From Myxococcota bacterium (GTDB lineage Bacteria > Myxococcota_A > Polyangia > JAAYKL01), in the NCBI GenBank assembly GCA_028278265.1, contig JANQET010000477.1, positions 1-37,996 on the forward strand: a DNA stretch of 37,996 nucleotides, in the 5' to 3' direction. The position numbers were made by a program, and so were the translations under genes. The notes below the pieces were generated by a model. That model saw only the letters and a list, made by a program, of their open reading frames with translations, did not search any database and had not been told where the DNA came from. Below, piece by piece: positions 1,440-33,205 of this stretch. Numbering within the stretch: the first letter of the stretch is position 1; every line of letters begins with the position of its first letter.

Positions 1440-2645
1440 ATGATCATGATGAACAGCAAAGATATCATCGACGTCACTGAACAATTTGGCGCCAACAATT
1501 ACCATCCGTTGCCGGTAGTGATCACCCGTGCCGAAGGGGTCTGGGTAGAGGATCCCGAAGGCAATCGCTACATGGACATGCTCAGCGCGTACTCCGCGCT
1601 CAACCAGGGGCACCGCCACCCCCGTATTGTCCAGGCGCTCAAGGATCAGGCGGACAAATGCACCCTGACGAGCCGCGCTTTTCACAACGATCAGCTGGGC
1701 CCCCTCTGTCAGGAGCTGGCCGAGCTGACCGGCATGGAGATGATCCTGCCGATGAACTCGGGCGCCGAGGCGGTGGAGACCGCGGTCAAAGCCGCGCGAA
1801 AATGGGGTCACACGATCAAGGGAATTCCCGCAGAAACTGCTGAAATCATTGTTTGTTCCGGAAATTTTCACGGCCGGACCACCACGGTGGTGAGCTTCTC
1901 CTCAGAGGAGTCCTACCGCCAGGGATTCGGTCCGTTCACCCCCGGGTTCACCATCATTCCCTACGGGGACGCCGAGGCTCTCAGCGCGGCGATTACCGAC
2001 AAGACCTGTGCCTTCCTGGTCGAGCCGATTCAAGGAGAGGCCGGCGTGGTGGTCCCCCCGGCGGGTTACCTCAAACGGTGCCGGGAGATCTGCGACAACA
2101 ACACCGTCCTGCTGATCGCCGACGAGATCCAGAGCGGTTTCGGTCGAACCGGCAAGATGTTCTGCTGCGAGCACGAAGGGGTGATCCCCGATGTGCTGGT
2201 GATGGGTAAGGCGTTGTCCGGCGGCATCCTCCCCGTCTCGGCAGTCGCCTCGAAAAACGACGTGCTCGGGGTGTTCCGGCCCGGTGAGCACGGATCGACC
2301 TTTGGCGGCTCACCGCTGGCCTGTGCGGTCGCCCGCGCCGCGATCGCCGTGATCCGCGACGAAAAGCTGGTCCAACGCTCGGCTGAGTTGGGCCACTATT
2401 TCGCCGAACAGTTGCTGGCGATCAATTCCCCGCACGTCAAAGAGATCCGGGGCAAAGGGCTGTTCATCGGCGTCGAGCTGACCGCAAAGGCCGGTCCGGC
2501 CCGCCCCTTCTGCGAGCGCCTGCAGGAGGAGCGCATGCTCTGCAAAGAGACCCACGAGTCGGTGATTCGCTTCGCCCCGCCGCTGGTCATCTCCAAAGAG
2601 GAGATCGACTGGGCCCTCGACCGCATCCGCAAAGTGCTCTCCTAG
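1440..2645 (+). CDS. rocD: Ornithine aminotransferase (ornithine--oxo-acid transaminase)
   Basis: This cytoplasmic PLP enzyme of the class III aminotransferases would transfer the delta-amino group of ornithine to 2-oxoglutarate. The product is glutamate semialdehyde, which links arginine catabolism to proline and glutamate. The 401-residue length is normal for RocD. The N-terminal [11 protein letters not shown], the segment [12 protein letters not shown], the glycine-rich [11 protein letters not shown] phosphate-binding turn, the [13 protein letters not shown] stretch with the Asp that contacts the pyridine nitrogen, and Lys257 in VMGKALSGG are all in place. The close relatives acetylornithine and GABA aminotransferase are less likely because of the RocD-type N-terminus. 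ATG codons at 1440, 1446 and 1449 are all possible. The AAGGTAAGG just upstream is better spaced for one of the two later ones. A 10-bp tandem duplication covers the stop. Confidence 0.9.
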
Positions 2646-2661
2646 GCTGACCTAGGCTGAC
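2642..2661 (+). repeat. 10-bp tandem duplication across the rocD stop
   Basis: The unit CTAGGCTGAC occurs twice head to tail (in the register CCTAGGCTGA from 2642), and the rocD stop TAG at 2643-2645 lies in the first copy. It looks like a recent slippage or micro-duplication and leaves the protein unaffected. Confidence 0.7.
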
Positions 2662-2744
2662 TTAATCCGGTTTACACCAGGCACCCAATTGCGCTAAACC
2701 TGCCACCATCTCGATCTCTTACGGTCTGCAAAAGGAGTATCCAA

Positions 2745-4376
2745 ATGAGTCGCGCACAGAACGCAGTTGTCGTTTTTCTAGCGTCTGCGGTGGCCCTCGG
2801 TCTGCCGGTTAAAACCGATGCCTGCACCTCTATTCTGGTGACCAAGGGCGCCTCGGTGGACGGTTCGACCATGATCAGCTATTCGGCGGACGCTGAATTT
2901 CACCCCCGTCCACGGATCATCCCCGCAGCGGATCACAAGCCGGGCAGCAAGAAGGAGATCCGCGGTTGGCGCGGGGTTCTGGGCCATGTCCCCGAGGTCC
3001 GGCACACCTACAAGGTGGTCGGTCTGATGAACGAGCACCAGCTGGCCATCGGCGAGACCACCTTTGGCGGACGCACCGAGCTCAAGAGCAACAAGGGCAT
3101 CTTTCACTACTACCCGCTGATGTTGATCGCCCTGGAGCGGGCGAAAACAGCGCGTGAGGCGATCACGGTGATGACCTCGTTGGTCGAGAAATACGGCTAC
3201 ATCAGCGAGGGGGAGTCTATTTCCATCGCCGACAAGAACGAGGTGTGGCTGTTGGAGATCGTCGGTCCGGGCAAGAACCGCAGGGGTGCTATTTGGGTCG
3301 CCGTCCGCATCCCCGACGGCATGGTCGCCGCCCACGCCAACATGTCGCGGATTCACCGGTTCCCCCTGAACGATCCGGACAACGCGCGCTATTCGAAAAA
3401 CGTCATTAAGTACGCAATAAAAAAAGGGTATTACAATCCCAAGAGCAACAAGCCGTTCAGCTTTTCCAACGCCTACAATCCGCCGACCCACGAGCAGGTC
3501 AAGGTCGCCGAGCGGCGGGTCTGGAGCATCTTTCGCCGGGCTGCCCCATCGCTGAAGCTCTCGCCGGACTACAGCTCCCTTTTACCGGGGAGCAAGCCGT
3601 ACCCACTGTTCATCAAGCCGGACCGCAAGCTCTCGGTGCGCGACGTGATCGCTCTGCACCGGGACCACTACGAGGGTACGCGATTCGACACTACCAAGGA
3701 TCACCTGGCCGGGCCGTTCGGTGCGCCGGATCGCTGGCGCCCGTTGAAGTGGGAAGCGGGCGGCAAAAAATACTCCTGGGAACGGCCGATCGCCACCCAG
3801 CAGGTGGGCTTTGTCTACGTCTCCCAGTCCCGGGCCGACTTTCCCGACGCCATCGGCGGGGTCAATTGGTTCGGCATGGACAATCCCTACACCAACGTGT
3901 TCGTGCCGTTTTACACTTCGATCACCCGGTTCCCCAAATCGTATGTCACCGGCAAGCTGAGCCACTTCACCCCGGAGTCGGCCTGGTGGGCCTACAACTT
4001 CGTCGCCAACTACGCCAACCTGCGCTACAGCTACATGATCAAGGATATTCAGAAGGTTCAACAAGAGATTGAGGACGTGATCTTCGGACTGCAGCCGGCA
4101 GTGGAACAGGCGGCCCGGCACCTGCGCAAAACCAACCCCGAAATGATCGGCCCCTACCTCACCCAATACTGCAACTCTACAGCAGAAGAGACCCTGCAAA
4201 AATGGTGGGATTTGGCCGATTTACTGATCACCAAGTACAACGACGGCTACATTCAAAATCCCAAAGGGCGGCCCCAGGAGATCGGTTATCCGAAGAAGTG
4301 GTTGGAACAAGAGCTCGAGCAAGGCCCCAAACGGGCACCCATCAGAGGGGAGAAGGCCCAGGACCGGGAGCTATAA
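2745..4376 (+). CDS. Secreted C69-family dipeptidase
   Basis: The 543-residue product has a cleavable signal peptide (hydrophobic core VVVFLASAVALGL) ending in Ala26. Removal of the signal would expose Cys27 at the start of CTSILVTKGASVDGS, the typical N-terminal nucleophile region of C69 dipeptidases, which are Ntn hydrolases. Further family features are the segment GLMNEHQLAIGETTFGG, the EKYGY segment before GESISIADKNEVWLLEI, and the WWAYNFVANYANLRYSYM stretch near residue 420. The enzyme probably hydrolyses dipeptides in the periplasm or outside the cell. It lies 99 bp after rocD with its own AAAGGAG site, so peptide breakdown followed by use of arginine or ornithine is a reasonable link, though only by position. 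The stop is 17 bp from the convergent gene's stop. Confidence 0.85.
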   Translation: MSRAQNAVVVFLASAVALGLPVKTDACTSILVTKGASVDGSTMISYSADAEFHPRPRIIPAADHKPGSKKEIRGWRGVLGHVPEVRHTYKVVGLMNEHQLAIGETTFGGRTELKSNKGIFHYYPLMLIALERAKTAREAITVMTSLVEKYGYISEGESISIADKNEVWLLEIVGPGKNRRGAIWVAVRIPDGMVAAHANMSRIHRFPLNDPDNARYSKNVIKYAIKKGYYNPKSNKPFSFSNAYNPPTHEQVKVAERRVWSIFRRAAPSLKLSPDYSSLLPGSKPYPLFIKPDRKLSVRDVIALHRDHYEGTRFDTTKDHLAGPFGAPDRWRPLKWEAGGKKYSWERPIATQQVGFVYVSQSRADFPDAIGGVNWFGMDNPYTNVFVPFYTSITRFPKSYVTGKLSHFTPESAWWAYNFVANYANLRYSYMIKDIQKVQQEIEDVIFGLQPAVEQAARHLRKTNPEMIGPYLTQYCNSTAEETLQKWWDLADLLITKYNDGYIQNPKGRPQEIGYPKKWLEQELEQGPKRAPIRGEKAQDREL

Positions 4377-4846: not shown

Positions 4847-5252
4847 ACTTACCTCTCTTGATCGGTTGGGTTGATTTTATCTCCTCGCATTAACAACACT
4901 TAGTCGCTGGTGTTGTCAATTCTCGGATGGGAGGCCTACCGTCTGAACCGGCCGGATGACCGGTTGTCCCATTGAGTCGGGTACCCCATACCCCAGGATT
5001 GACAGCGAGAGAATTCCCTCTTGTGAATTTCAATAAGTTTAAATATACTTAAAAGTTGCGGTATTCTTTATATTCGGAACAGGGGTAAGAGTTGGCAATT
5101 ACTCTAAAAAAAATGCCTACCTTGAAAAAAATGCGCAGTCGGTCAATAGGTCAACCGGCCAAGCGGACTGAATTATCGGTATTTGTTGGAAAAATGGGCT
5201 TCAACCAGAATCGTTTTCTGGTATGAGAGGGCTGACAACGAAGGGTCTGTTC
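4847..5252. other. AT-rich spacer between divergent genes
   Basis: This 406-bp stretch separates the His-rich lipoprotein gene (minus) from the giant surface protein gene (plus) and holds no credible gene. Its right half is clearly richer in A and T than the surrounding coding DNA. It contains a short inverted repeat AACCGG/CCGGTT (4946-4951 and 4960-4965), a promoter-like site at 5021-5049 and two A-runs each followed by ATGC near 5105 and 5125. Both genes are presumably transcribed outward from it. An isolated perfect TTGACA at 4999-5004 has no good -10 at normal spacing. Confidence 0.5.
5021..5049 (+). promoter_or_regulatory. Sigma-70-like promoter ahead of the giant surface protein
   Basis: TTGTGA at 5021-5026 and TATACT at 5044-5049 are separated by exactly 17 bases. 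The -35 matches the consensus at four of six positions and the -10 at five of six. The site lies about 200 bp before the start codon, so a long untranslated leader would result. Confidence 0.4.
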
Positions 5253-8200
5253 ATGAAGCATCAATCCTGTTTTCAAAACACTTTCGCGACGGTTGCCGGG
5301 CTGTTACTGGCGCTGTCGTGCAACGGAAACGACCCGCTGGGGGAGACCATACAATCGGGATCCACAGCGTTAACTGACCGAAATAAAACGGCAATTCATC
5401 CGATGGAGCGGTCCTTTGAAACGACACCGCGGTCCGACGTGCTCGGCGGCCTCTCGTTTCAAATCGGGATCGCCGACGATGAGGTGTCTCAAGGGGACGA
5501 GTGCTGCACCGAGCCGGGGCAGGCCGCGGAGTGCTGGCATCAGGATGCGATTCACGACAGTGTCCGCTGCAGCGAGAACACCGACTGCGCACCGGGCAAC
5601 ATCTGCAACGCCGACGGCCTGTGCACCTGTTCGAGTGAAGCCCACTGCAAGGGCACGGATTTCGGCGGGGATCACCCCCAGGCGTCGGCCAACGGTATCT
5701 GTCGCGATGACAACGTCTGCGGGCCGTCTTGGTGCAACGGCTACTTCGTCTGTTCCTGTTGGGGCGGCTGTGTCTGGTGGACCACCGCACCGCCGGACGA
5801 CGACGGCAACATGTTCACCCCGGCCGACATGTGCAGCAACAACGGGTTGGGCTGCGACAACGGACAGTATCCGTATGATCCCGAGCAGTCCGGTTTCTGT
5901 AGCGGCACGATCGTCGATCCCTGCCAGAATGACGCCGAATGCAACGACAACAACCCCTGCACCAGCGATCACTGCGATCCCGGGCACACCTGCACCAACG
6001 ACTTCGGCTGCTACTATGAGGTCGACACCACGCAAAACTGTTCGCTCTCCACGAGCGACCCACGCTCCGAGGATTGCGTCGACGCCCGCTGCGCGCCAAT
6101 TGAAATCGACGGCTGCGTGGTCGGTGCTTCCTGTGACGGTCCAGCGGTCAACGCCGGTGGATTCTGCGTAGACAATCCCCACGACGTGGACGCTTCCTGG
6201 TACGGCATGGGACCGCGCCACATCATGGGCGAAGCGAGCTGTTACCTGCAAAACTGCGACGCGGCGGGCCAATGCAACGCCGACGCTTCGTTGGCCAACA
6301 ACCTGGTCTGCGCCGAGGACGACGGCAACCCCTGCACCGACGAGCTCTGCTGGAACGGCCAGTGCACTCACAATCCGGACGCCCACGTGGGGGAGGACTG
6401 CGATCTGGACGGCAACCCCTGCACCCTGGATGAATGCGACCCAGCCGGTGACTGTACGTATATCTCCGACAAAGACTGTGACGATGAAAACGAATGCACC
6501 ACCGACGCCTGCGACCCGGCCGACGGCCTGTGTGTCAATGACGATGTACCGGACGGAACGCCCTGCGGCGGCGACGGCGACGTTTGCACCTTGGACGACT
6601 CCTGCCAAGGGGGGGTCTGCACCTCCGGCGATGCCAAAACCTGTATCGAGCTGTGGGATCAGTGCAACTACTGGATTTGCGATCCGACCGATGTCGATAC
6701 GGACGGCGAGGGGGAATGCGTTCGCTCGAACGAGGCACTCCTGGGCAGCTCCTGCAATGCGGATGGAGACGGATGCACGCAGGACGAATGCGTCTGCCTC
6801 AACCCCCCGTGTGACGACCCAGACGGAAACTACGAGTTGGTCTGCACCAACGTGGGCCAGACCATCTGCGATGACCTCAACGAGTGCACCGAGGATTACT
6901 GCGACCCGGCCGACGGCCAATGCAAGGTGACCTTCTCCGATGAAGGTACGGCCTGTAACGCGGACTCCAACGGCTGCACTCGAAACGACGCCTGCAACGG
7001 CGCCGGGGGGTGCTTGGCCGGCGAGCCGATCACCGGTGAATGGTGCTTGCTCAACGATCCGACCAACTGCCCCGCGGGGTGCGACCTGGACTGCAACACC
7101 GCGTCGTGCACCGATTTGGGCAATGCGGGGAACAATTTCAACGCCTTTGAATGCGCCTTTGCCGGACTCAGTGGTGAGTGCGATGCAGATGACGACCCGT
7201 GCACGTTGGACATTTGTGACACCACCGGACCGGCGCCCCAGGAATGCGTCGCCGGGCCGCCGCGGGATTGTTCGTTCCTGGACAACCAGTGTCGCTTCGG
7301 CAGCTGCGACCCGTTGGACGGGGATTGCGTCGCCGATTTTCAGCCCTTGGGCGCTCTGTGCAATGCGGACAGCAACGGCTGCACCGAAAACGACTATTGT
7401 GACGGGGGCGGGATGTGCGCTGCCGGCTCGTTGGTCAGCTGCGAACCGGAACCCACGGATCCGTGTCACGAGTACATCTGCCAGAGCGACGGGGCAGATC
7501 CCGCGTTCAACAGCCATACCTGCATCCCGGATGCGGATCTGCTGCCCGGCTGCTGCGAATCCGACGCCGAATGCAGCGGCTGTACCGCCGCCCTGGCAGC
7601 CGACGGGGGGTGCTGCACGCCCCGCTGTGGGGATGACGGCTCGGGCATCGGTTACAACGTTTGCTATCTCGAAATCGAACCTTATGGCACCGCTTGTACT
7701 GATATCGACGACGCGGTGTATCCGCCCAACTGCTACGAGGGATTCTGCGGGGTGACCCCGACGGGCATCCCCAGCGGTATCTGCGAGCCGGTGATGCACG
7801 CGGCGTACAACAACCTCTGCAGCGACGCGTTCATCGAAGGGGACATCACCGCCGTCGACAAGGGCTCCGACTCGTGGATCGGCGAGTTCAGCAAGGAAGA
7901 CGAATCGGGAACCACCCTCGAGATCATCGGCTCGACCACCTGTGCGAGCAACAATTACGAAGCGATCGGTGAACACTGCGTCGAAGACGACGGCACCGAC
8001 ACCCCCTTGGGCCAAACCGGGCCCGATCTGGTCTACGCCTTCTCCTATCCCACCAACGCGGCGGACGAGTACATCCTGTGGTCCTATGTGGTTAAGGTGC
8101 AGGCCGATTTCGATGTGGGTGTGTACGTGGCACAAGACATCCACACGGCAGAAGACTGTCCCGAAGGCAACCAGCCGGACAATGACTATGCCCATGTGCA

Positions 8201-11200
8201 GGTCTCTTCGGAGCGCTGCAACTATCCCCACGCCAGCGCCGTGGCGGTCACCGAAGACGACTGCGACGACACGGGCAACACCCTGGCCGGCCAGCAGTGC
8301 TGCTACCCCAATCCCCTGAGTGCCGAAGAGGAGCAGTGCGGCGGTCCGACCTGCACGGGCACGACCGGTGACGGCAAGTGCGGGTACTACTGGTGCCGGC
8401 GCTACTATCCCACCGGGTGCTGCAACTACGAAGATGGCGAAGACTGCGAGCAGAAAGTGGCGGACGGCACCTGCGACGGCCGCTGGGACTATCCCGAGAA
8501 TCCCCACGATTGCACCCAGGAGGTGCCCGGCGGGATGGAGGCGTTCGACTACGTGGCCAGTGCGGTGATCTTTCCCGAGGGCCGTTCGAGCGGCGAAACG
8601 CGCACTGTCTTCATTTTTATGGACGGGGCTCAGTCCGACAAAGGCAATTTCTATCTGACCGTCGAAAAGCGCAAGTGGTCGGCCAGCCCCTGTGACCGGG
8701 TCAATGACGATCCCCGCGTCTTCGACGTGACCCACCCGGGAGTGGACGGGGCGACCTGGACCGGCACCTTGGAGAACGTGGTCAACAGCATGCACGCCGG
8801 CGGCGGCGATTGCGGCGGGTACAACTGTGCCAACTCCTGGTCCGGGCGCACCAGCTGCCACGCGTCGGGCTCGGCCAATGAATTCTGGCCCAACACCGAG
8901 ATCTTCAAGATCCACCGCGGCTGGGACGAGGGCAACGCCAACTACTGTATCAAGAGTGAGGAGAATTTCCTCGGCGCTGCTGATCTGGTGGGTCAGATCT
9001 ATCGCCGCAGCTACTCCGGGGCGACGACGATTTGCGATGAATCCTACTACAACGTTGGCTGCGGTCACGATGACGTGGGGAACAACCTGCAATTCGAATT
9101 TGTGGCCAACGCCGGTCAGTTGTACCTGGTCGAATTTTCCCAGTATGCGCACACCACCCGGGTCTGCGATCCCGGTCTGGGGGATGACTGCCTGTACGAG
9201 ATCAGCGTGTACGAAGGCAGCTGCCCGATGGATTGCCTACCCCCGTGGGAGACCCCGCAGGAGACGGTGACCATCACCGAGCCCGACGGCTGTTTCACCG
9301 CTGACAGCACGGTCCAAGCGGCCGACGGCAACCACTACAACCCGCCGGGCATCGACGGGGATGACGAGATCTGGGAGGTCAACAACGTCACCGCGGAGAT
9401 GCAGCCGGTGACGATCACGGTCTGTCCGGAGTCATCGTGGAATATGGGTCTTTCGATCTACGACTGCGAGCAGAACCGACTGCAGGACAACAACATCGGC
9501 GGCGCCGGGGCCTGTGAGACGGCCAGTGTCGAGGTGTTACCGGGTCAAAATCAAATCTACGTCAATGTGGACAGCTACGGCGCTAGCGGCGCCTACAGCA
9601 TCGAGATCAAATGGGGCAACGGGGATTGCAGCGAGCCGGATACGGACACGGACGACAATTTCGCCAGCTGCGACGAGGCGATGCAGGCGGCCCACTACAC
9701 CTTCGAGGGTTGCGACGATCAGGGGTGGACCCTCGAGGGGGATTGGGCGGTCGGCACCCCCGGGGTCGGAGTGGCCTACGAGGGCAGCTGCACCATTGCC
9801 ACCAACCTAGGCGCCGCCTATTCGATGAACGCCGACGACGAGGCGACATCGCCGACCATCGATACCACCGCCTGTATCGGACAACCCGTCTACCTCCACT
9901 TCTTCATGTGGCGGGACATCGAAGGGAACAGCCGGTGTCTTTACGACTGGGCTGACGTTCAAGTGTACAACGGCTCGTCTTGGATCACCGTTTCCCCCTT
10001 CCAAGGGTATGACTACGAGCTGGGAAACCGGTGGTGCGGGAACATCGACACCGGCATCCAACCCGACTGGATCCACAATGTGGTGGATGTCTCCTTTGCG
10101 ATGAACGAGAATCTCCAAATCCGCTACCGGATGCATTCGGACGGCTCAATCGCCGAGCAGGGATTGTTCGTCGATTTGATCTGGCTCGACGATTCCTCAG
10201 GGACCGAGCTGTGCGGCAACGGCTGGCCGGACACCGGCGAACAATGTGACGACGGCAACAGCGACAACACCGATGCCTGCCTGACCGACTGCACCGACGC
10301 CAGTTGCGGCGACGGCTTCACCTGGGTCGGCCAGGAACAGTGCGACAACGGATCGGGCAACAGCGACAACGCCCCCAACGCCTGCCGCACCAACTGCCAA
10401 AACCCCTCCTGTGGGGACGGGGTCACCGACACCGGAGAGACCTGCGATGACGGGGGAACCGTCAACGGGGACGGCTGCGACCAAAATTGTCAACTGGAGT
10501 CGGTGTGCGGCAACAACGTCGTCGAGGGGGTCGAAGAGTGTGACGACGGGCCGGCCAACAGCGACACCGCGCCCGACACCTGCCGCGAGAACTGCAAAAA
10601 TCCCTACTGTGGCGATAGCGTGATCGATTCCGGGGAGACCTGTGACGACGGCAACGTGGATTCATCCGATGCCTGCGTGGCCTGTGCCGACGCGATCTGC
10701 GGCGACGGCCACGTGCGGACCGGCGTTGAGGACTGTGACGACGGAGCGGCGAACAACAACTGGCAACCCAATCACTGCCGACCCACCTGCGTCCTGCCCA
10801 CTTGCGGCGATGGGGTGACCGACGGAAACGCCACCTATGGGGAAGCGTGCGATGAAGGCGCGGCGATGCCCACGGCGTCCTGTGACAACTGTGCCATCCC
10901 GACGGGCTTTTGTGGGGACGGCGCAGTGGGCATGGCGTTGCAGGTGAAGGACGATTTCGAGACCGGTGACCTGAGCGCCCTCGACTGGGAGGTTCAGAAT
11001 TGGGCGGTCAACACGGAGCAGCAAAACAACGGCAGCTATTCCCTGCGCACGACCAACTACAACGTCAACAACAGCCTGGCCGTCGCCGCGGTGGAGGCCT
11101 ATTCCGACGGGGAGGTCTGCTTCAACTATTGGGGCGAGACCGAGCTGAATTACGACTACTTCCGCTTTTACGTCGACGGGGCGATCATCTGGGAACGCAG

Positions 11201-13274
11201 CGGTATCTTTGCCGCGGCCTGGGCCGAGAGCTGCCACCCGGTCTCTGTCGGCGTGCATCAATTCGTCTGGGAATACCACAAGGACTCGACCACCCATGAC
11301 GGTCACGATCGGATCTACATCGACGACCTCCGCTTTACTGCCGGGGACTATCCCGAGCAGTGTGACGACGGTGACACCGCCACGGGGGACGGATGCAATG
11401 CGTTTTGTCTCGACGAAACCTGCGGCAACGGCACGATCGATGAAGGCGAAGAGTGTGATGACGGCGGCACAGCGGACAATGACGGCTGTTCCGTGGGTTG
11501 CGCCATCGAATACTGCGGCAACGGGGAACTGGAGATCGTCCCCGAGGCCGTCGAGGACTTTGAGAGCGGCGATTTGCTGAGTCAACCCTGGGATTGGATC
11601 TGGGAGAGCACCTCGAGAACCAAACCGTTCGTGGTCACCGACGATGACGCGGCCGGGGGTACTTACTCCGCTGTCTCGTCGAACAAGCGGATGAACAACT
11701 CCCGCTCCGAGCTCAACCTCATCGCCTACACCGACGGGCAGGTGTGCTTTGATTGGCGCGGCTCGTCCCAGACCAATGCCGACCTGTTCCAGTTCATCGT
11801 GGACACCACGGTCGTGTTCAGCCGTTCGGGGGATCACGATGCCGCCTGGCAAACCCACTGCGAAGATCTCGCTCCGGGGGTGTACGACTTCCAATGGGTC
11901 TACCTCAAAAACGCGAGCTCTTCGTCCAATTGGGATCGATACTTCATCGACAACATCCGTCTGGCCGAGGCCTACAGCGAGAGTTGCGATCAATTCGACG
12001 ACTGGACCGGCGGCGACGGGTGTGGGCCCACCTGCAGTGACGAAATCTGTGGCAACGGTATCGTCGATCCCGGCGAGGAGTGCGACGACGCCAACAGCAT
12101 CAGTACCGACGCCTGCGTGGATTGTGCCGATGCGACCTGCGGCGACGGGTTCGTCTTTGCCGGCACTGAACAGTGCGACGAGGGCTCGGCCAACAACAGC
12201 TGGGATCCCAACAGCTGCCGACCGGACTGCGCCACTCCCAGCTGCGGCGACTTCGTCACCGACGACGCCGCACCGTACAATGAACAATGCGACGACGGCA
12301 ACGCCTTGACCACCGACGACTGCATCAGCTGCAGCGCGGCCTATTGTGGGGACGGCCACGTTCAGCAGGGGGTCGAAGAGTGTGACGACGGCAACGCGGT
12401 CCCGGACGATGAGTGCGACAACGACTGCAATTCGACCATCGACTGCTCGAGCTTCGTGTTGGCCACCTTTGACGACTCCCTCAGCCCCTACACCGAGGCG
12501 AGCGAGTCGGGTTCGATGGTCTGGGAGTGGAACACCGGCAGCTCACCGGGGAGCGGCGGCTACGCCTACTTCGACAGTGACTTCTATACCGTCAACTGGG
12601 ACAACTTGATTAGCCCCGAGTATCAGCGGATCCGCGACTGCGCTGTGGTGGTGGAGTACAACCACGACTACAAGGACTATAATTCCGGCTCTTATTACTC
12701 ATACGCCTCGGTACAGAAGCGCTCGTCGACATCGCCGAGTTGGTCTACGGTGCAGCTGTACCACGACGCCAGCGCCTCGGGTTTCGACTCCTATGAATTG
12801 GCCGCCGACTCGGCCACCGACTGGGCTGCCGATGGTGATGACATTCAAATCCGATTTCGATACGAGGCGTACTACGCCTTTCACTGGTCCCTCGATGACA
12901 TCAAAATCATCGGGGTGACCGGGGCGGACGCGGAGCCGGACACAGATACCGATCCCGGCCCCTGGTGCAACGGCGTCGAGGTGGCGGGATACTGCTGGTA
13001 CTACGGCGGGGGTGGCGAATCCTGCGGTACGGTGTGCGCTGCTCACGGAGGATACCATATCGCAACGCGATCCTACGCCGGCAGCGACGGCTCCACACTG
13101 AATTGCAGAGATGTGCTCGATGCCCTGGGCATCGGTAGCGGGATCCCCGGCCTGCAAACGGGCGTCGGGCTCGGCTGTAGCTTCTACAACGGGAACCGGT
13201 ACCGCACCATCGATCCCACGACCGAGACCGCATCCTTCACCGGATATGCAAGGGTATGTGCCTGCAATGAGTAA
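5253..13274 (+). CDS. Giant Cys-rich mosaic surface lipoprotein (2673 aa) with myxo-disulfide repeats
   Basis: ATG at 5253 is preferred over 5223 because GAAGGG precedes it by 7 nt and the signal peptide starts there. The signal ends LLLALSC, so Cys23 may be lipidated. Residues about 50-790 are Cys- and Asp-rich units of the DxNPCT...CDPADGxC type. Residues about 850-1100 and 1345-1460 resemble beta domains of the pre-peptidase C-terminal type. A beta-sandwich module lies at about 1475-1640. Residues about 1650-2395 hold 14 copies of the CGDG...E.CDDGN...C disulfide repeat known from Myxococcota; copies 8 and 10 are each split by a beta module ending in DRIYIDDLRF or DRYFIDNIRL. A fourth module (about 2395-2555), a short Asp-Thr linker and a distinct C-terminal domain (GYCWYYGGGGESC...VCACNE) follow. 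Probably exposed at the outer membrane for adhesion or recognition; no catalytic motif is visible. The next gene starts 13 bp downstream. Confidence 0.85.
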   Translation: MKHQSCFQNTFATVAGLLLALSCNGNDPLGETIQSGSTALTDRNKTAIHPMERSFETTPRSDVLGGLSFQIGIADDEVSQGDECCTEPGQAAECWHQDAIHDSVRCSENTDCAPGNICNADGLCTCSSEAHCKGTDFGGDHPQASANGICRDDNVCGPSWCNGYFVCSCWGGCVWWTTAPPDDDGNMFTPADMCSNNGLGCDNGQYPYDPEQSGFCSGTIVDPCQNDAECNDNNPCTSDHCDPGHTCTNDFGCYYEVDTTQNCSLSTSDPRSEDCVDARCAPIEIDGCVVGASCDGPAVNAGGFCVDNPHDVDASWYGMGPRHIMGEASCYLQNCDAAGQCNADASLANNLVCAEDDGNPCTDELCWNGQCTHNPDAHVGEDCDLDGNPCTLDECDPAGDCTYISDKDCDDENECTTDACDPADGLCVNDDVPDGTPCGGDGDVCTLDDSCQGGVCTSGDAKTCIELWDQCNYWICDPTDVDTDGEGECVRSNEALLGSSCNADGDGCTQDECVCLNPPCDDPDGNYELVCTNVGQTICDDLNECTEDYCDPADGQCKVTFSDEGTACNADSNGCTRNDACNGAGGCLAGEPITGEWCLLNDPTNCPAGCDLDCNTASCTDLGNAGNNFNAFECAFAGLSGECDADDDPCTLDICDTTGPAPQECVAGPPRDCSFLDNQCRFGSCDPLDGDCVADFQPLGALCNADSNGCTENDYCDGGGMCAAGSLVSCEPEPTDPCHEYICQSDGADPAFNSHTCIPDADLLPGCCESDAECSGCTAALAADGGCCTPRCGDDGSGIGYNVCYLEIEPYGTACTDIDDAVYPPNCYEGFCGVTPTGIPSGICEPVMHAAYNNLCSDAFIEGDITAVDKGSDSWIGEFSKEDESGTTLEIIGSTTCASNNYEAIGEHCVEDDGTDTPLGQTGPDLVYAFSYPTNAADEYILWSYVVKVQADFDVGVYVAQDIHTAEDCPEGNQPDNDYAHVQVSSERCNYPHASAVAVTEDDCDDTGNTLAGQQCCYPNPLSAEEEQCGGPTCTGTTGDGKCGYYWCRRYYPTGCCNYEDGEDCEQKVADGTCDGRWDYPENPHDCTQEVPGGMEAFDYVASAVIFPEGRSSGETRTVFIFMDGAQSDKGNFYLTVEKRKWSASPCDRVNDDPRVFDVTHPGVDGATWTGTLENVVNSMHAGGGDCGGYNCANSWSGRTSCHASGSANEFWPNTEIFKIHRGWDEGNANYCIKSEENFLGAADLVGQIYRRSYSGATTICDESYYNVGCGHDDVGNNLQFEFVANAGQLYLVEFSQYAHTTRVCDPGLGDDCLYEISVYEGSCPMDCLPPWETPQETVTITEPDGCFTADSTVQAADGNHYNPPGIDGDDEIWEVNNVTAEMQPVTITVCPESSWNMGLSIYDCEQNRLQDNNIGGAGACETASVEVLPGQNQIYVNVDSYGASGAYSIEIKWGNGDCSEPDTDTDDNFASCDEAMQAAHYTFEGCDDQGWTLEGDWAVGTPGVGVAYEGSCTIATNLGAAYSMNADDEATSPTIDTTACIGQPVYLHFFMWRDIEGNSRCLYDWADVQVYNGSSWITVSPFQGYDYELGNRWCGNIDTGIQPDWIHNVVDVSFAMNENLQIRYRMHSDGSIAEQGLFVDLIWLDDSSGTELCGNGWPDTGEQCDDGNSDNTDACLTDCTDASCGDGFTWVGQEQCDNGSGNSDNAPNACRTNCQNPSCGDGVTDTGETCDDGGTVNGDGCDQNCQLESVCGNNVVEGVEECDDGPANSDTAPDTCRENCKNPYCGDSVIDSGETCDDGNVDSSDACVACADAICGDGHVRTGVEDCDDGAANNNWQPNHCRPTCVLPTCGDGVTDGNATYGEACDEGAAMPTASCDNCAIPTGFCGDGAVGMALQVKDDFETGDLSALDWEVQNWAVNTEQQNNGSYSLRTTNYNVNNSLAVAAVEAYSDGEVCFNYWGETELNYDYFRFYVDGAIIWERSGIFAAAWAESCHPVSVGVHQFVWEYHKDSTTHDGHDRIYIDDLRFTAGDYPEQCDDGDTATGDGCNAFCLDETCGNGTIDEGEECDDGGTADNDGCSVGCAIEYCGNGELEIVPEAVEDFESGDLLSQPWDWIWESTSRTKPFVVTDDDAAGGTYSAVSSNKRMNNSRSELNLIAYTDGQVCFDWRGSSQTNADLFQFIVDTTVVFSRSGDHDAAWQTHCEDLAPGVYDFQWVYLKNASSSSNWDRYFIDNIRLAEAYSESCDQFDDWTGGDGCGPTCSDEICGNGIVDPGEECDDANSISTDACVDCADATCGDGFVFAGTEQCDEGSANNSWDPNSCRPDCATPSCGDFVTDDAAPYNEQCDDGNALTTDDCISCSAAYCGDGHVQQGVEECDDGNAVPDDECDNDCNSTIDCSSFVLATFDDSLSPYTEASESGSMVWEWNTGSSPGSGGYAYFDSDFYTVNWDNLISPEYQRIRDCAVVVEYNHDYKDYNSGSYYSYASVQKRSSTSPSWSTVQLYHDASASGFDSYELAADSATDWAADGDDIQIRFRYEAYYAFHWSLDDIKIIGVTGADAEPDTDTDPGPWCNGVEVAGYCWYYGGGGESCGTVCAAHGGYHIATRSYAGSDGSTLNCRDVLDALGIGSGIPGLQTGVGLGCSFYNGNRYRTIDPTTETASFTGYARVCACNE

Positions 13275-20326: not shown

Positions 20327-20362
20327 GTGATGATGAAACTTGAATCCGCCGGAGGGCATTGA
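20327..20362 (+). CDS. Eleven-codon leader ORF coupled to the diguanylate cyclase
   Basis: AAGGAG at 20312-20317 is spaced 9 nt from a GTG at 20327 (12 nt from the ATG at 20330). The frame reads MMMKLESAGGH and ends in TGA at 20360-20362. The last base of that stop is the first base of the ATG of the diguanylate cyclase. The cyclase has its own GGAGGG inside the leader ORF. The arrangement is what translational coupling or a leader-peptide control would look like. There is no proof of translation, and it may be chance. Confidence 0.35.
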   Translation: MMMKLESAGGH

Positions 20363-21294
20363 TGCCGAGTAACCCACATAAATCGCTTGAAAGAACGATC
20401 CAAATCGACCGGTCGACGATCGCTGAACAAATGCGCAATGAAAAGCAGAAGAAGGCCTGCTTCATCGTCATCGGCGGACTCGATGTGGGAAGCGTGATTG
20501 GGCTCGATGAACCGGTGGTCACCATGGGACGGGACGTGGACTGCAAGGTGGTGCTCAAGGACGACGGTGTGTCCCGGTTCCACGCCGAGGTTCGCCGGGA
20601 AGGCCCCGACAAGGTGATCATCAAAGACCTGGGGAGCACCAATGGCACCTTTGTCGCCGGTGAACGTATCGATCAGGCGGCGCTGACCGACGGAACCAAG
20701 GTGCTGATCGGTCGACGAACCATCCTCAAATTCGTTTTTCAGGACGAGCTGGAGCACTCTTACCAGCAGCAGATGTACGAGTCCTCCACCCGGGATGGAC
20801 TGACCGGCATCTACAACCGCAAGTACTTTGCACAGAAGCTGCTGACCGACCTCTCCTTTGCCCGCCGCCATCAAATCTTCTGTACATTGGCGATGTTTGA
20901 TATCGACCACTTCAAGAAGGTCAATGACACCTATGGGCACCGGGCCGGGGACAAGGTGCTGATCGGCGTTACCGAGGCGGTCAACAAAATGATCCGCACC
21001 GAGGATGTGCTGGCGCGTTACGGCGGTGAGGAGTTTGCGGTCATCGCTCAGGGGACCGATTTCAAAGGGGGCGCAGCGCTCGGAGAGCGCATTCGCGAAT
21101 GCGTGGCCCAGCAAAAGGTAAATATCGCCAAAGGGGGCGAGTTGATCCTTCAAGTCACCGTGAGCGTCGGCGTGGCCACGATCAGCCCGACCAAGGAGAT
21201 CGAACCCTCGGCAGTCGTCTCCGCAGCCGACGCCAATCTCTATCAAGCCAAGAACAAAGGGCGTAATCGAGTCGTAGCCACCCTCGTCAAGTGA
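20362..21294 (+). CDS. FHA-domain diguanylate cyclase (FHA-GGDEF)
   Basis: The 310-residue cytoplasmic protein starts at the ATG at 20362, served by GGAGGG 5 nt upstream. A Thr-containing N-terminal segment (SLERTIQIDRSTIAEQM) leads to an FHA domain (about 35-125) with the phosphothreonine-binding elements MGRD, VSRFHAEV and LGSTNGTFV. The GGDEF domain (about 140-310) has DGLTGIYNRKYF, DIDHFKKVNDTYGH and the active-site motif GGEEF. RTED sits five residues before GGEEF, the position of the inhibitory c-di-GMP site. It should therefore make c-di-GMP from two GTP, be product-inhibited, and be recruited or controlled through a phosphothreonine partner, presumably a target of a Ser/Thr kinase such as the one at 27816-29906. 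The bactofilin gene follows 30 bp later. Confidence 0.9.
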   Translation: MPSNPHKSLERTIQIDRSTIAEQMRNEKQKKACFIVIGGLDVGSVIGLDEPVVTMGRDVDCKVVLKDDGVSRFHAEVRREGPDKVIIKDLGSTNGTFVAGERIDQAALTDGTKVLIGRRTILKFVFQDELEHSYQQQMYESSTRDGLTGIYNRKYFAQKLLTDLSFARRHQIFCTLAMFDIDHFKKVNDTYGHRAGDKVLIGVTEAVNKMIRTEDVLARYGGEEFAVIAQGTDFKGGAALGERIRECVAQQKVNIAKGGELILQVTVSVGVATISPTKEIEPSAVVSAADANLYQAKNKGRNRVVATLVK

Positions 21295-25627: not shown

Positions 25628-26740
25628 TCAGGGGGTGACCAGCGGCTGGGACCACCGGCGGGCAAACTCGGCGAAGCGCTGCTCAGCGATCGCCTCTTTG
25701 GCACCGGCCATCAATGATCCGTAGTGATGGAGGTTGTGCAGGGTGAGCAGTCTCGAGACCAGCATTTCACCCACCGTGAACAGGTGCCGCAGGTAGCGCC
25801 GATCGAATTGGCGGCAGCAGGGACACGAGCAACCAGGCTCGAGGGGCAGGGGATCGTCGATGTATCGCGCCTGTTTGATATTGATGCGTCCCCCGTGAAC
25901 AAACGCTTGACCGTTGCGCGCGTTGCGCGTTGGCATCACACAGTCGAACATGTCGATACCCTGTCCAATCGCCGTGAGGAGATCGTCCGGGGTACCCACC
26001 CCCATCAGGTAGCGGGGCCGCTCCGCCGGCATCTGAGGAGCGACCGCCCGGAGGATCCGGTACATCTGTTCAATCGGCTCTCCCACCGACAGCCCGCCCA
26101 AGGCCAGCCCATCGAAGTCGAGCTCGGCGAGGGTTTGCAGATGGGCCAGCCGCAGATCTTCGTGAATCCCGCCCTGAACGATGCCGAACAAGGCCTGGTG
26201 CGCCGGCCGGATCAGCGCCACCTGCTGACGGGCCCACAGGGTGGTGCGATCCACCGCCCGCTCCACCTCCTCCCGCGAGGCGGTCCCGTGGGGGCACTCG
26301 TCGAGGATCATCGCAATGTCGGATCCGAGCGCCCCTTGAATCTCAATCGCCCGCGCCGGGGTGAGGTTCACCCGCTGGCCGTCGATATGGGAGGAAAACA
26401 CCACACCGTCATCGGTGAGCTTGACCCGCTCCCCCAGGCTGAACACCTGAAACCCGCCGGAATCGGTCAGCGTGGGGCCCCGCCACCCCATGAACTCGGC
26501 CAAGCCGCCTGCACCGCGAATCAGCTCTTCGCCGGGCCGCAGCATCAAGTGATAGGTGTTGCCGAGCAGAATGGACGCGCCGCTGTCCCGAACTTCGTCC
26601 GGGGTGACCGCCTTGACCGAGGCCCGGGTACCGACCGGCATGAAGGCCGGTGTCGGGACGGTCCCGTGGGCAGTGGTGATCAAGCCGCTGCGGGCCAAAT
26701 CGTCAGTGTGTCGAACTCGAAAGGAAAAGGCGTCGGTCAT
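25628..26740 (-). CDS. tgt: Queuine/preQ1 tRNA-guanine transglycosylase
   Basis: The 370-residue cytoplasmic enzyme exchanges guanine 34 of the tRNAs for Asp, Asn, His and Tyr against preQ1. Length and motifs are those of bacterial Tgt: the catalytic region LTDSGGFQVFSLG, ALGGLSVGEP, MPTRNARNGQAF, and the zinc site CSCPCC followed by RRYLRHLF. It starts 11 bp after queA, whose product performs the next step, so the two form an operon for queuosine synthesis downstream of the Ser/Thr kinase gene. The next gene on the same strand, the sensor kinase, is 85 bp away. Confidence 0.96.
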   Translation of the reverse strand: MTDAFSFRVRHTDDLARSGLITTAHGTVPTPAFMPVGTRASVKAVTPDEVRDSGASILLGNTYHLMLRPGEELIRGAGGLAEFMGWRGPTLTDSGGFQVFSLGERVKLTDDGVVFSSHIDGQRVNLTPARAIEIQGALGSDIAMILDECPHGTASREEVERAVDRTTLWARQQVALIRPAHQALFGIVQGGIHEDLRLAHLQTLAELDFDGLALGGLSVGEPIEQMYRILRAVAPQMPAERPRYLMGVGTPDDLLTAIGQGIDMFDCVMPTRNARNGQAFVHGGRINIKQARYIDDPLPLEPGCSCPCCRQFDRRYLRHLFTVGEMLVSRLLTLHNLHHYGSLMAGAKEAIAEQRFAEFARRWSQPLVTP

Positions 26741-26751
26741 CAGGTTCTTCT

Positions 26752-27815
26752 CTACGGGTTGAAACGGGGCGGTTCGGCCGAGGGCAAAATGAGCATCGCA
26801 TCGCCGTAGCTGTAAAAACGATACCGCTCTTGCACCGCGGCGGTGTAGGCCCGGCGAATTCGCTCCTCCCCGGCCAGGGCGCAGACCAGGCAGAGCAATG
26901 TGGAACGGGGTAAGTGAAAATTGGTCAGCAGGCCGTCCACCGCGTTGAAGGTAAATCCCGGGGTGATGAACAGATCGGTGAACCCGGAGCAGGCCTCAAT
27001 CGTTCCATGGGTGGCATAGGCGCCCTCGAGGGCACGCACCGTGGTCGTGCCCACGGCGATCACCGGCCGGCCGGCGGACTTGGCTCGATCGATCTTGGCT
27101 GCCACCGCCTCCTCGATCAGATACTGTTCTTCATCCATCCGGTGCTCGGCGATATCATCGACGACAATCGGCCGAAAGGTTCCCGGTCCCACGTGCAGGG
27201 TGATAAAGGCGATCTCGTTACCCCGGGCCTTCAGCTCGGCGAGGGCCGCTTCGGTCAGGTGAAGACCGGCGGTCGGCGCGGCCACCGATCCGTCGTGCCG
27301 GGCATACACCGTCTGGTACCGCGCGCGATCGGATTTCTCGGGAGCCCGCTTGATATACGGCGGTAGCGGCACCTCACCCACCGATTGCAGCACCTGTTTG
27401 ACCGCTTGCCCCGACGCCGCGAATCGGACCGTGGTGTCCCCCCGCTCCCCGCGGGTTTCTATCTCAGCGACGAGATCACCGCAGCTCACCTGATCTCCGG
27501 GCCTCAGCGGCTTGTTGGCCCGCGCCAACGTGGACCAGACCGAGGCGGTTTCCCCCTCCTCGACGAGCCGCACCAACAGCAGCTCCACCGCTCCACCGGT
27601 GGGACGTCGACAGTGCAACCGGGCGGGAATCACTCGGGTGTCGTTGGCCACGAGCAGGGCGTCGCGGGGCAAGTAGTCGGTCAACTCGGTGATGCTGGCG
27701 TGTGCCAGCCGATCGGGTTTTGGGCCGAGCACCAGCAATCGGCCCCCGTCCCGTTCGGTCGGGGGATGGGCCGCGATCAGCTCGTCGGGTAGCTGGTAGT
27801 CGAAGAAATCGGGCT

Positions 27816-27819
<4 letters not shown>
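26752..27819 (-). CDS. queA: S-adenosylmethionine:tRNA ribosyltransferase-isomerase
   Basis: QueA transfers and rearranges the ribosyl group of SAM onto preQ1 in tRNA, giving epoxyqueuosine. The product from the GTG at 27819 is 355 residues and begins MKPDFFDYQLPDELIAAHPP, the normal QueA N-terminus. Further family segments are ANDTRVIPARL, GEVPLPPYIKR, RYQTVYARHDGSVAAPTAGLH and TNFHLPRSTLL. The frame is open 61 codons further upstream, but that part overlaps the kinase gene and has no QueA similarity. The GTG overlaps the kinase stop in GTGA, so translation is probably coupled to the kinase. No independent ribosome site is evident. Confidence 0.95.
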
Positions 27820-29906
<2,087 letters not shown>

Positions 29907-29932
29907 TGGGGACCTCCTCAGCCCACCGACGG

Positions 29933-32149
29933 CTATCGTCGTCGGCGACGTTTCCCCTTCTGCGCAGCGCTCTTCACGACAAAATCGGCATTAATGGCGG
30001 GCACTTCGAGTTTTTCACCAGACGGCAGATCAACTGCTCGGCTGCCGGCCACTTTGCCGTAGACATCGACCCAGGAGTACATGCCGGCATCGGTTTCCCC
30101 GCGATACACGACGTAGATCGCGCATTTGGCTCCCTTGGGACAACTGGTGGCCATGTAGAGCAGAAAGACGGTGACCCCTTTTTCGGTGTTGATATTGACC
30201 ACGCGCCCGGTGACCTTGGCTTTTTTATTGACATGGGCGTTGGGGCTGCGCGCCAGGGTCGGGTAGTCGAGACGGGGGTCCAGCTCTTCGGACCAGGTGG
30301 CAATCGCCCCCTTCAAATCCCCGATGCGCGTCACTTTGACCGTCTGGGTCCTCGGTGCTTTGTTGGGGGCACGGGCGGTGATCTGAATCGAATGTTCACC
30401 CATCGCCGGTAGGGGCACGGAGGTGTTGAAACCGACTGCCGTGATCCCCACTGCCTTTCCGTTCACCGTCACCTTGGCGCCCTCCTCGGTGATGCCGGCG
30501 CAGGTCACGGTCTCGGTGTCCACGATGGCGTTGCGCGCCGGCCGGTCGATTTGCAGCCGGGTCTGGGGAATGGTCAGCACGTGCTGTCCCTGCTCACTCA
30601 AGCCCTTGGCATCGGTGATCTGAAACGAGACGCCGTAGACCAGATTCTCTGCAGTGCTCTGGTTCACCGCGGCGATTTTGGTCAGCTCGACCCGATGGGC
30701 GTAGGCACCGTTCACCGGTTGGACGGTCTGTCCCTCCACGGTGAGGGCGATCCCCGGAATGACGCGAAAGTTGACGACCACAAACGGTTGGGCACCAACC
30801 AGCCCGGTCATATCGGTCGTGATTAAATGGCGTAGCACAATGGGAAAGCTGTGCTGCTCGGCCGGCCGTCCCGGTTCGGTGTAAAGCACTTGGATTTCAT
30901 TGGCCCCGATTTGGAGCTGGGTCATCGGCAGGTCGATTCGGGCCTGCCCGTTGACCACCTGAACGGTTTGGCCGCCCAGCTGCAATGTGGTTCCCGGCGG
31001 TGCGGCGGGAAACGAGAACACGGTGGCCACCGCTTTACCGTCCGGTGTGGAAAACACCTGAGGCCGCACGGACTGGCCATCGTCAAACACGAAAAGGTAA
31101 ACCAGCACGCCGGCGCCGGCCAGGATCACCACGACCATGGCGACAATCAATCCGATGATCAGCCCCCCTTTGCGCTCCCCTCCCCCTTGCTCCTCTTCAT
31201 CCCACCACTGATCATCGTCGGTGGTCGGGGACGCCGCCGTTGATGTGGCCTGTTTCGGGGTGACTTTGCTCTCCCCCATCACCGGCTGATCGACGGTCTT
31301 GGCCTCAGCGCTCTGGGTCGGGGCCGGCGTCGGCTCGGCAGCAGCCGGTTTGGGTTGGGGTTCGGGCTCTGCCGGGGGCGGCGTAATGCCCCGCTTGGTG
31401 TCCGCTTTTTGGCTCGGCGGGACGACCATCCCCAGCATCGTGCGATTGCTCGGACCGCCCGGTGCGGCTGCCGGAGGGGCCCCCGAAGTGACTGCCTTGG
31501 CCATCGGCGGCTTGGACGATTTTTTGGACGGCATCTTGTCCGTGGAGACCGAGGGCATACCAAACACGGTCTTCTGACCGGATCCGGCGACCGGTGCGGG
31601 CCGCGGTTGGGCAGCCGGCGCGCTGTCTCCCTTGGGTGTACCAGGCCCCGCAGCGGGCGGCTCAGCCGCGGCACCCGCGGTATCGATCATCGTCTGCGCG
31701 GTGCCCAGCTCGTTCCGTGGCGCCTCCGTCGGGGCAGAGGCCGGCTGGGCCTGGGCTGGTGAAATCGGCTGGGCTTGGGCCGGTGAAACCGGCTGGGCTT
31801 GGGCCGGTGAAACCGGCTGGGCTTGGGGGGGCGCCTGCACCTGGCCGAACATCATCGTTTTATTGCCCCCAGCCTGATCCGTTGCGGGTTTGGCGGGCTG
31901 GGGCTGCGCCGGAGACACCGGCTGGGCCTGGGCCGGTTTAGCCGGTGGGGCCTGAGCCGATTTGGCCGGCTGGGCCTGGCCGAACATCATCGTTTTGGCA
32001 GTGCCTTCGGACTGGGCCGCCGGTTTGGCCTGTTGCGTCGACGGAGGGGACTTGGCTGCACCACCGGGGGTGAGCTCGCTGCCGCAAGCCGAACAAAACT
32101 CAATGGCGTCGTCGTTGGACACACCGCACATCTGACAGATTTTCGCCAC
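29933..32149 (-). CDS. Zinc-ribbon, Pro/Ala-rich membrane protein with repeated Thr motifs
   Basis: GTG at 32149 is used, with GAGGAG 8 nt upstream. The 738-residue protein has a zinc ribbon (Cys5, Cys8, Cys19, Cys22). A disordered Pro/Ala/Gln-rich cytoplasmic region of about 300 residues contains AKTMMFGQ, NKTMMFGQ, AQTMIDT, QKTVFGM and NRTMLGM. A membrane helix (about 331-355) is followed by periplasmic beta domains, one of which (about 550-620, with GAKVTVNGKAVGI) looks like a bacterial Ig-like domain. A final domain with KKAKVTGRVVNINTEKGVTVF and a basic tail GKRRRRR ends it. Family unknown to me. Because the kinase gene lies 26 bp downstream and shares the plan, I infer a kinase partner or substrate whose Thr motifs are phosphorylated and bound by FHA domains. 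It contains an internal 24-bp tandem repeat. Confidence 0.78.
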   Translation of the reverse strand: MAKICQMCGVSNDDAIEFCSACGSELTPGGAAKSPPSTQQAKPAAQSEGTAKTMMFGQAQPAKSAQAPPAKPAQAQPVSPAQPQPAKPATDQAGGNKTMMFGQVQAPPQAQPVSPAQAQPVSPAQAQPISPAQAQPASAPTEAPRNELGTAQTMIDTAGAAAEPPAAGPGTPKGDSAPAAQPRPAPVAGSGQKTVFGMPSVSTDKMPSKKSSKPPMAKAVTSGAPPAAAPGGPSNRTMLGMVVPPSQKADTKRGITPPPAEPEPQPKPAAAEPTPAPTQSAEAKTVDQPVMGESKVTPKQATSTAASPTTDDDQWWDEEEQGGGERKGGLIIGLIVAMVVVILAGAGVLVYLFVFDDGQSVRPQVFSTPDGKAVATVFSFPAAPPGTTLQLGGQTVQVVNGQARIDLPMTQLQIGANEIQVLYTEPGRPAEQHSFPIVLRHLITTDMTGLVGAQPFVVVNFRVIPGIALTVEGQTVQPVNGAYAHRVELTKIAAVNQSTAENLVYGVSFQITDAKGLSEQGQHVLTIPQTRLQIDRPARNAIVDTETVTCAGITEEGAKVTVNGKAVGITAVGFNTSVPLPAMGEHSIQITARAPNKAPRTQTVKVTRIGDLKGAIATWSEELDPRLDYPTLARSPNAHVNKKAKVTGRVVNINTEKGVTVFLLYMATSCPKGAKCAIYVVYRGETDAGMYSWVDVYGKVAGSRAVDLPSGEKLEVPAINADFVVKSAAQKGKRRRRR
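31743..31831 (-). repeat. 24-bp tandem repeat coding for AQPVSPAQ
   Basis: Units at 31743-31766, 31767-31790 and 31791-31814 are followed by a partial fourth. The second and third are identical and the first differs at three positions or so. They encode an eight-residue Pro/Ala/Gln repeat in the disordered cytoplasmic region. Identity of neighbouring units points to recent expansion, so the copy number may vary between strains. Confidence 0.85.
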
Positions 32150-32200: not shown

Positions 32201-33205
32201 TTATTGGGACCTCGTCGTCTTGGCAAATACTGTTCGAAAACGAGCCCGTTTTCCAGAGAGCTCCACCACGTGCGCCATCCCCACGGACCGCCCCTGTCCG
32301 ATCAACGACAGGGGAACCGCGTCGACCGCCCCGGTCTGGAGATACAGGGAGTCGTGCCAGATGCCCTCGGACACCGCTGTAGCGCCGTCGTCGAGCGTGG
32401 CGTGTCCCCCTGACTCGTAGACATAGCCGAACAGCCCGAAACGAAGCTCGTTCACCCGCAACAGCTCGGCCAGGGCCGGATCGCCCAGGTTTACATCGCC
32501 ACGCCCCCGATCGACCGCCTGCGCCCCGCGCCCCAAAGGAGGGGAAGGGGCGAGGATCACGGTGGTCCGCGCTTCGTCGAACAGGGAGGTGAGCTCCTCG
32601 AGATCGCTTTTTTGATATGCACACCCGCGCTTTCCCGCTTTGAGGTAGTACGGATTGTAGTACCCCGGGATGCTGACGATGTTGATGTTCCCCAAAATCA
32701 CTCGCCTGATTCGAGTCATATCCAATATTTGGGGGTATTTCTGCCGCACCTGTCGCACTGCCCGCCGAAAGACGTCAAAACTCTCCTGGGCCCCGGGGCA
32801 GACCAGAATCGGCACCGGCGCCTGGGCCAGACGCTCGAGAATCGGCGTCACCTGGTTGTCGAGCAGGCCGACACCGCCGGCGACCAGGATTGCTTGAACC
32901 CCGGTTTTTCTGAACTCGTTCAAAAAGAAATCGATATTGGCCAAATTGGCCGTGGAGGGTTCGACGACGCCGGCGAGCACGCCGAGCACGATTTGTCCCC
33001 GTTTGATCCCGCGAATGGTCACCGATAGCCCGTCGCGCTCGACAGTCAACGGGGTCAGGTTGAACTTCTCCCGAACACCGTCGTCATAGGGTTTGGCACA
33101 GCGCAAAAACCCCTGTCCCCGCTTCTTGCCCCCTTCGGGTTCGTCCGCGCTACCACACCCCAAGGCGAGCACTGCAACGAGCATCGCGATATGTCTTCTA
33201 AACAT
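32201..33205 (-). CDS. Lipoprotein with a degenerate metallophosphoesterase-like fold
   Basis: The 334-residue product has a good lipoprotein signal (MLVAVLALGCGS, Cys at residue 17). The rest follows the strand-helix order of calcineurin-like phosphoesterases: a strand entering LGVLAGVVEP, a strand ending ILVAGGVGLLDN, ILVCPGAQES in place of the GNHE turn, TTVILAPSPPLG in place of the His strand, and LRFGLFGYVYESGG in place of the GHxH turn. In each, the metal-binding Asp, Asn or His is missing, so a hydrolase activity is unlikely and a binding role is inferred. The family call is from pattern memory and needs a structure search. It lies 72 bp after the DUF296-like gene and 51 bp before the zinc-ribbon gene, in the same direction. 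Confidence 0.6.
   Translation of the reverse strand: MFRRHIAMLVAVLALGCGSADEPEGGKKRGQGFLRCAKPYDDGVREKFNLTPLTVERDGLSVTIRGIKRGQIVLGVLAGVVEPSTANLANIDFFLNEFRKTGVQAILVAGGVGLLDNQVTPILERLAQAPVPILVCPGAQESFDVFRRAVRQVRQKYPQILDMTRIRRVILGNINIVSIPGYYNPYYLKAGKRGCAYQKSDLEELTSLFDEARTTVILAPSPPLGRGAQAVDRGRGDVNLGDPALAELLRVNELRFGLFGYVYESGGHATLDDGATAVSEGIWHDSLYLQTGAVDAVPLSLIGQGRSVGMAHVVELSGKRARFRTVFAKTTRSQ

Follow-up and report, generated by a model that had tools for sequence, protein, structure and literature searches.

Why should a membrane protein encoded beside a Ser/Thr kinase carry a series of nearly identical threonine-centred segments in its disordered linker? The question is raised by the gene at 29933..32149 (minus strand) of the window, the whole 37,996-nucleotide stretch of Myxococcota DNA analysed here. 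Our analysis shows that the segments are copies of a linear motif that is conserved, repeated and dependent on Thr, and that the membrane protein bearing it is genetically paired with a Hanks kinase.

Architecture of the scaffold protein

The product of this gene, which we refer to as the scaffold, has 738 residues arranged as an N-terminal zinc ribbon, a disordered linker of ~300 residues (27-329), one transmembrane (TM) helix and a periplasmic domain. Its Pfam matches are Zn_Ribbon_1 (below cut-off) and Glucodextran_B (38.3 bits), and the zinc ribbon itself (CQMC...CSAC, 32072..32137, minus strand) scores 26.6 bits against PF13240. The TM helix is placed at the hydropathy maximum, residues 330-348 (31106..31162, minus strand). 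The scaffold is probably a single-pass inner-membrane protein with the linker in the cytoplasm.

The periplasmic part (29936..31105, minus strand) was examined with AlphaFold2, Foldseek and Pfam. The AlphaFold2 model, built from 8 sequences, has a mean pLDDT of 80 and a pTM of 0.60, and our own reading of its strand order suggests beta-sandwich domains followed by a C-terminal OB-like barrel. Foldseek retrieves Ig-like proteins at low TM-scores. This part of the protein is thus modelled as tandem Ig-like beta domains plus a C-terminal OB-like domain with a conserved Cys pair. The scaffold reaches 25.2 bits, below cut-off, against the TcaA-like family PF22820, whose members likewise have an N-terminal zinc ribbon, one TM helix and extracytoplasmic beta domains; we know of no repeated Thr motifs in these TcaA-like zinc-ribbon membrane proteins.

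Orthologues of the scaffold occur in 12 of the 13 other genomes of the family, which with its own makes 13 of the 14 genomes in the order sample. At the level of the phylum, a profile built on the periplasmic part detects relatives in 31 of 237 genomes.

A conserved threonine motif in the linker

All five peptides listed in the earlier note are present on the minus strand between 31427 and 31999. They are motif 1, AKTMMFGQ (residues 51-58, 31976..31999); motif 2, NKTMMFGQ (residues 96-103, 31841..31864); AQTMIDT (residues 151-157, 31679..31699); motif 4, QKTVFGM (residues 192-198, 31556..31576); and motif 5, NRTMLGM (residues 235-241, 31427..31447), whose NRTMLG recurs in class-level homologues. 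Four of the five fit T[MVIL][LMFVIA].?G, for which shuffles of the same linker give an average expectation of 0.15. The proposed five-copy series is therefore better described as four good copies and a degenerate one: AQTMIDT has no Gly, and since orthologues carry RTV[LM]G at the same place, we take it to be a decayed or shifted copy.

In a 13-member family alignment the near-invariant positions of the linker fall almost only within the motifs, as expected of the conserved linear motifs that had been proposed. The invariant columns are T53 in motif 1 and T194 and G197 in motif 4; the columns of T146 and G149 are near-invariant, with the window itself having N and G there. The motif Thr and Gly are invariant over genera, whereas the linker outside the motifs is unalignable. 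Across 36 homologous linkers from the whole phylum the motif is seen 105 times against 3.4 expected by shuffling. Every one of the 36 linkers has at least one copy, most have 2-4 and some have up to six. The spacing is TxxG in 90 copies and TxxxG in 15. The consensus reads N/K-R/Q/K-T-M/V/L-L/V/I/F-G-M/V-P/A, and a majority of copies show the fuller form [N/K][R/K/Q]-T-[M/V/L]-[L/V/I/F/M]-(x)-G-[M/V]-P.

The position of the Thr is strikingly selective. Over the 36 linkers it is filled by Thr 105 times, Met 9, Pro 9, Ser 6 and Val once, in linkers whose overall content of Thr (5.7%) and Ser (6.1%) is nearly equal. Loss of the Thr from orthologues, which would have spoken against the original proposal, is thus not what the invariant columns and the 105 to 6 ratio of Thr to Ser reveal. 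The motif is short, lies in a disordered region and is conserved above both its surroundings and chance, as are functional short linear motifs. The linkers are Pro/Ala-rich and repetitive, as functionless low-complexity drift or recent tandem duplication would make them, but the excess over shuffled sequence and the invariance of Thr and Gly over genera within unalignable surroundings refute this explanation and leave it a negligible probability.

Occurrence of the motif in other proteins

At the DNA level the pattern TM[LMI]GMP has 41 matches in the 237 genomes. Judged by eye, 16 of the 29 loci examined are long low-complexity linkers, hosted by zinc-ribbon scaffolds, kinases, PilZ and similar proteins. 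The Ser version of the pattern has 27 matches in the same 237 genomes, none of them in a comparable linker. We adopted the Ser pattern as the control because the alternative T[LMI]MGMP is unclean, T[IL]MGMP being itself a variant of the motif; a search with the reversed pattern was also run as a control. Twenty motif proteins, hand-picked rather than randomly sampled, were read whole and fall by Pfam into scaffold homologues, PEGA and TPR kinases, degenerate kinases, PilZ and zinc-ribbon proteins and one Hsp70. The motif also occurs in response-regulator-like proteins. The class appears to be undescribed, and a literature search with the motif letters returned only irrelevant matches.

In a scan of the window's own genome with the motif, most matches are chance ones in globular proteins. 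Matches of the form TLFGV in FHA-sigma54 proteins were likewise set aside as, in our judgement, part of the globular AAA+ domain (the ESELFGHE element).

The partner kinase

The adjoining kinase gene (27816..29906, minus strand) encodes a 696-residue protein with a zinc ribbon, a PknB-type kinase domain, a TM helix and a periplasmic domain. The kinase domain occupies 28974-29765; the protein matches Pkinase at 174.5 bits and PknB is its best solved relative. The 26 bp between scaffold and downstream kinase that had been described are found at 29907-29932. By a hand count over the phylum that includes the window and leaves out loci at contig ends, a kinase lies directly 3' of the scaffold in 26 of the 39 loci that could be assessed. 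The adjacent kinase is absent from the other 13 loci, five in the window's family and eight elsewhere, and the scaffold motifs persist there. In the own-family loci of this kind that were read, QueA follows the scaffold instead.

The idea of a motif series in a membrane protein whose gene accompanies that of a PknB-type kinase is borne out, both by the 105 copies seen against 3.4 and by the pairing in 26 of 39 loci. Enrichment does not extend to kinases at large, with 3 copies seen against 3.6 expected in 28 kinases of the same genome, and 5 against 2.6 in 150 kinases of genome G190, whose closed chromosome carries the same scaffold-kinase pair. The segment PKTANLG does precede the membrane helix of the partner kinase as reported, but it is not conserved and so is not a further copy; among partner kinases we find no good copy in the juxtamembrane segment. 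In the window's own genome we count 40 FHA domains, with about 88 matches to kinases.

FHA domains and the proposed link to c-di-GMP

A related pattern, [KR]TM.[MF], occurs in 4 of 59 FHA ORFs compared with 1 of 1,363 other ORFs (Fisher p 1e-5, which overstates independence, as the four examples come from only two families). The FHA test loci were chosen regardless of the motif, and the pattern was set after two of the four examples had been seen. All four sit immediately N-terminal of the FHA domain: KTMFFSGAQIPG and RTMFMASP (L352), RTMFMGP (L364) and AKTMAMG (L370). The first three belong to zinc-ribbon FHA proteins; AKTMAMG is in a VWA-TM-FHA protein with an FHA-ABC transporter gene beside it (L370:3-1886 and 1890-3701). 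The window's own genome encodes a VWA-TM-FHA protein at C511 and a pair of zinc-ribbon FHA proteins at C421. Motif 1 of one relative's scaffold reads AKTMMFGKAPQIPE, close to KTMFFSGAQIPG. The position of the FHA-flanking segments is that of the self-peptide in GarA, OdhI and DgcB. In two outlying genomes [KR]TMF[FM] precedes the first FHA domain of the zinc-ribbon paralogues, and the Thr is lost in the window's family. Zinc-ribbon double-FHA paralogues, often adjacent to one another, are themselves conserved in that family (L355 (G000:C421), L344, L350, L352-L364).

In GarA, OdhI and Bdellovibrio DgcB, a Thr in a disordered tail is phosphorylated by a Hanks-type kinase (in DgcB a presumed one) and read by the FHA domain (PMC6733907; PDB 6HBZ/6HC1). 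The DgcB peptide (LEKpTSIV) and the scaffold motif have a basic residue at -1 in common. The self-peptides, however, are single copies acting in cis with Glu at -2 and a hydrophobic residue at +3, whereas the scaffold is a separate membrane protein with several copies, no Glu and usually Gly at +3. The scaffold is thus not itself a DgcB-type protein: Pfam finds no FHA domain in it and its motifs have no Glu at -2.

The window does encode an FHA-GGDEF protein (20359-21294) with the N-terminal tail LERTIQID, and DgcB (6HBZ) is its closest solved structure. The segment ERTIQID, once grouped with the scaffold motifs, is present but is a different motif, an FHA self-peptide of the DgcB type, matching LEKpTSIV in its Glu at -2, basic residue at -1 and hydrophobic residue at +3 (PMC6733907). 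Other FHA proteins encoded by the genome carry ENTIRFD and ETTIRID, which fit this pattern too. On its sequence, LERTIQID is a true DgcB-type case, a known mechanism distinct from that of the scaffold motif. The suggestion that the scaffold feeds c-di-GMP synthesis is unsupported, as the FHA-GGDEF gene is ~9 kb away and is not seen near the scaffold in relatives' neighbourhoods; one relative locus near a scaffold (L030) has a GGDEF-type match.

Possible functions of the motif

The reading we favour, with a probability of just over one half (0.52), is that the motifs form a multivalent set of phospho-Thr docking sites, which a kinase (the partner or another) writes and FHA proteins read. Phosphorylation of the motif Thr would fall to the Hanks-type partner, usually the product of the next gene, or to another kinase; the phosphorylated copies would then offer several docking points to cytosolic FHA-domain proteins, and a signal that scaffold and kinase sense in the periplasm might in this way lead to assembly at the membrane. 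We infer phosphorylation, FHA binding and the direction of signalling from knowledge of these protein families. The preference for Thr over Ser fits this reading because pThr-specific FHA recognition predicts Thr, and new support comes from two other families in which [KR]TM.[MF] segments directly precede an FHA domain. Several observations count against it. Known FHA ligands have a hydrophobic residue or Asp at +3, but Gly occupies this position in 90 of the 105 scaffold copies, leaving a hydrophobic +3 possible only in the 15 T-x-x-x-G copies (for example T-M-M-F-G). The derivation of the FHA-flanking examples from only two families, together with the loss of their Thr in the window's family, also argues against FHA reading, as does the lack of any conserved FHA gene beside the scaffold in the gene neighbourhoods of relatives. 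The weak point of the kinase-substrate part is the 13 of 39 loci that have motifs and no adjacent kinase.

Those 13 loci would fit a docking that is independent of phosphorylation, with the motif binding as a hydrophobic beta-type peptide in a groove of some common cytosolic partner and Thr being kept for its hydroxyl and methyl groups. The strongly hydrophobic core of the motif points the same way, as does its presence in proteins that lack an obvious tie to kinases (PilZ, Hsp70-like and response-regulator-like). A kinase substrate, however, better suits both the near-absolute use of Thr (105) over Ser (6) and Val (1) and the basic residue at -1, and the copies that flank FHA domains are also at odds with simple docking, so that we regard this account as possible but rather unlikely. 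Clearly less probable still is that the motif mimics the activation segment and recruits the partner kinase, or regulates it, by acting as a docking or (pseudo)substrate element. The P+1 loops read GSLVGTPYYM in the window kinase and GTVLGTPHYM in others, so that Phi-Phi-G-[TM]-P is common to motif and partner-kinase loops, and the scaffold-kinase gene pair is conserved. The likeness is nevertheless short, with Thr after the Gly in the loops and Met/Val in the motif; the motif is kept in kinase-less loci; and the loop of the PEGA kinases that bear it differs, reading GILKGKFGYM. Within the window's family, PEGA-domain kinases (L123, L134, L140-L142) carry one RTMLGMP-type motif between the kinase domain and the TM helix, which in L134 reads KPTMLGMP.

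Multivalent phospho-Thr docking has parallels elsewhere. The FHA-ABC transporter Rv1747 of M. tuberculosis reportedly has several pThr in a disordered linker that are bound by FHA domains and promote clustering at the membrane; it differs from the scaffold in being a transporter of an unrelated family that has sites and FHA domains in one protein and no zinc ribbon. The juxtamembrane domain of StkP is likewise disordered and membrane-proximal and recruits partners through several phosphorylated Thr, although its sites are on the kinase itself and the abstract names no T-Phi-Phi-G motif (PMC12077195).

A broader and distinctly tentative proposal, which we consider doubtful, is that membrane signalling in Myxococcota uses T-Phi-Phi-(x)-G-[MV]-P as a phospho-Thr code not described before. 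Zinc-ribbon Hanks kinases would write this code and zinc-ribbon/FHA hub proteins would read it, and one assembly might thereby unite zinc-ribbon scaffolds with PEGA kinases, degenerate kinases and PilZ proteins. Few substrates are known in the Myxococcota, although a genome there encodes dozens of FHA domains and tens to more than 100 Hanks kinases (88 matches here, at least 150 in G190). The scaffold, which pairs a conserved Thr motif with a likely kinase encoded beside it, provides defined peptides for assays and a means of matching kinases, substrates and FHA readers from sequence.

Other features of the locus

Just upstream of the scaffold, and co-conserved with it in the family, lies the gene for what we read from its sequence as a phosphoesterase-like lipoprotein (32201..33205, minus strand); a Pfam search with it gave no match. 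The queuosine genes QueA and Tgt adjoin the scaffold gene (and that of the kinase) in much of the family, and in the window this group spans 25628-32149. The window also encodes a 2683-residue protein with many Cys-rich repeats (5223-13274).
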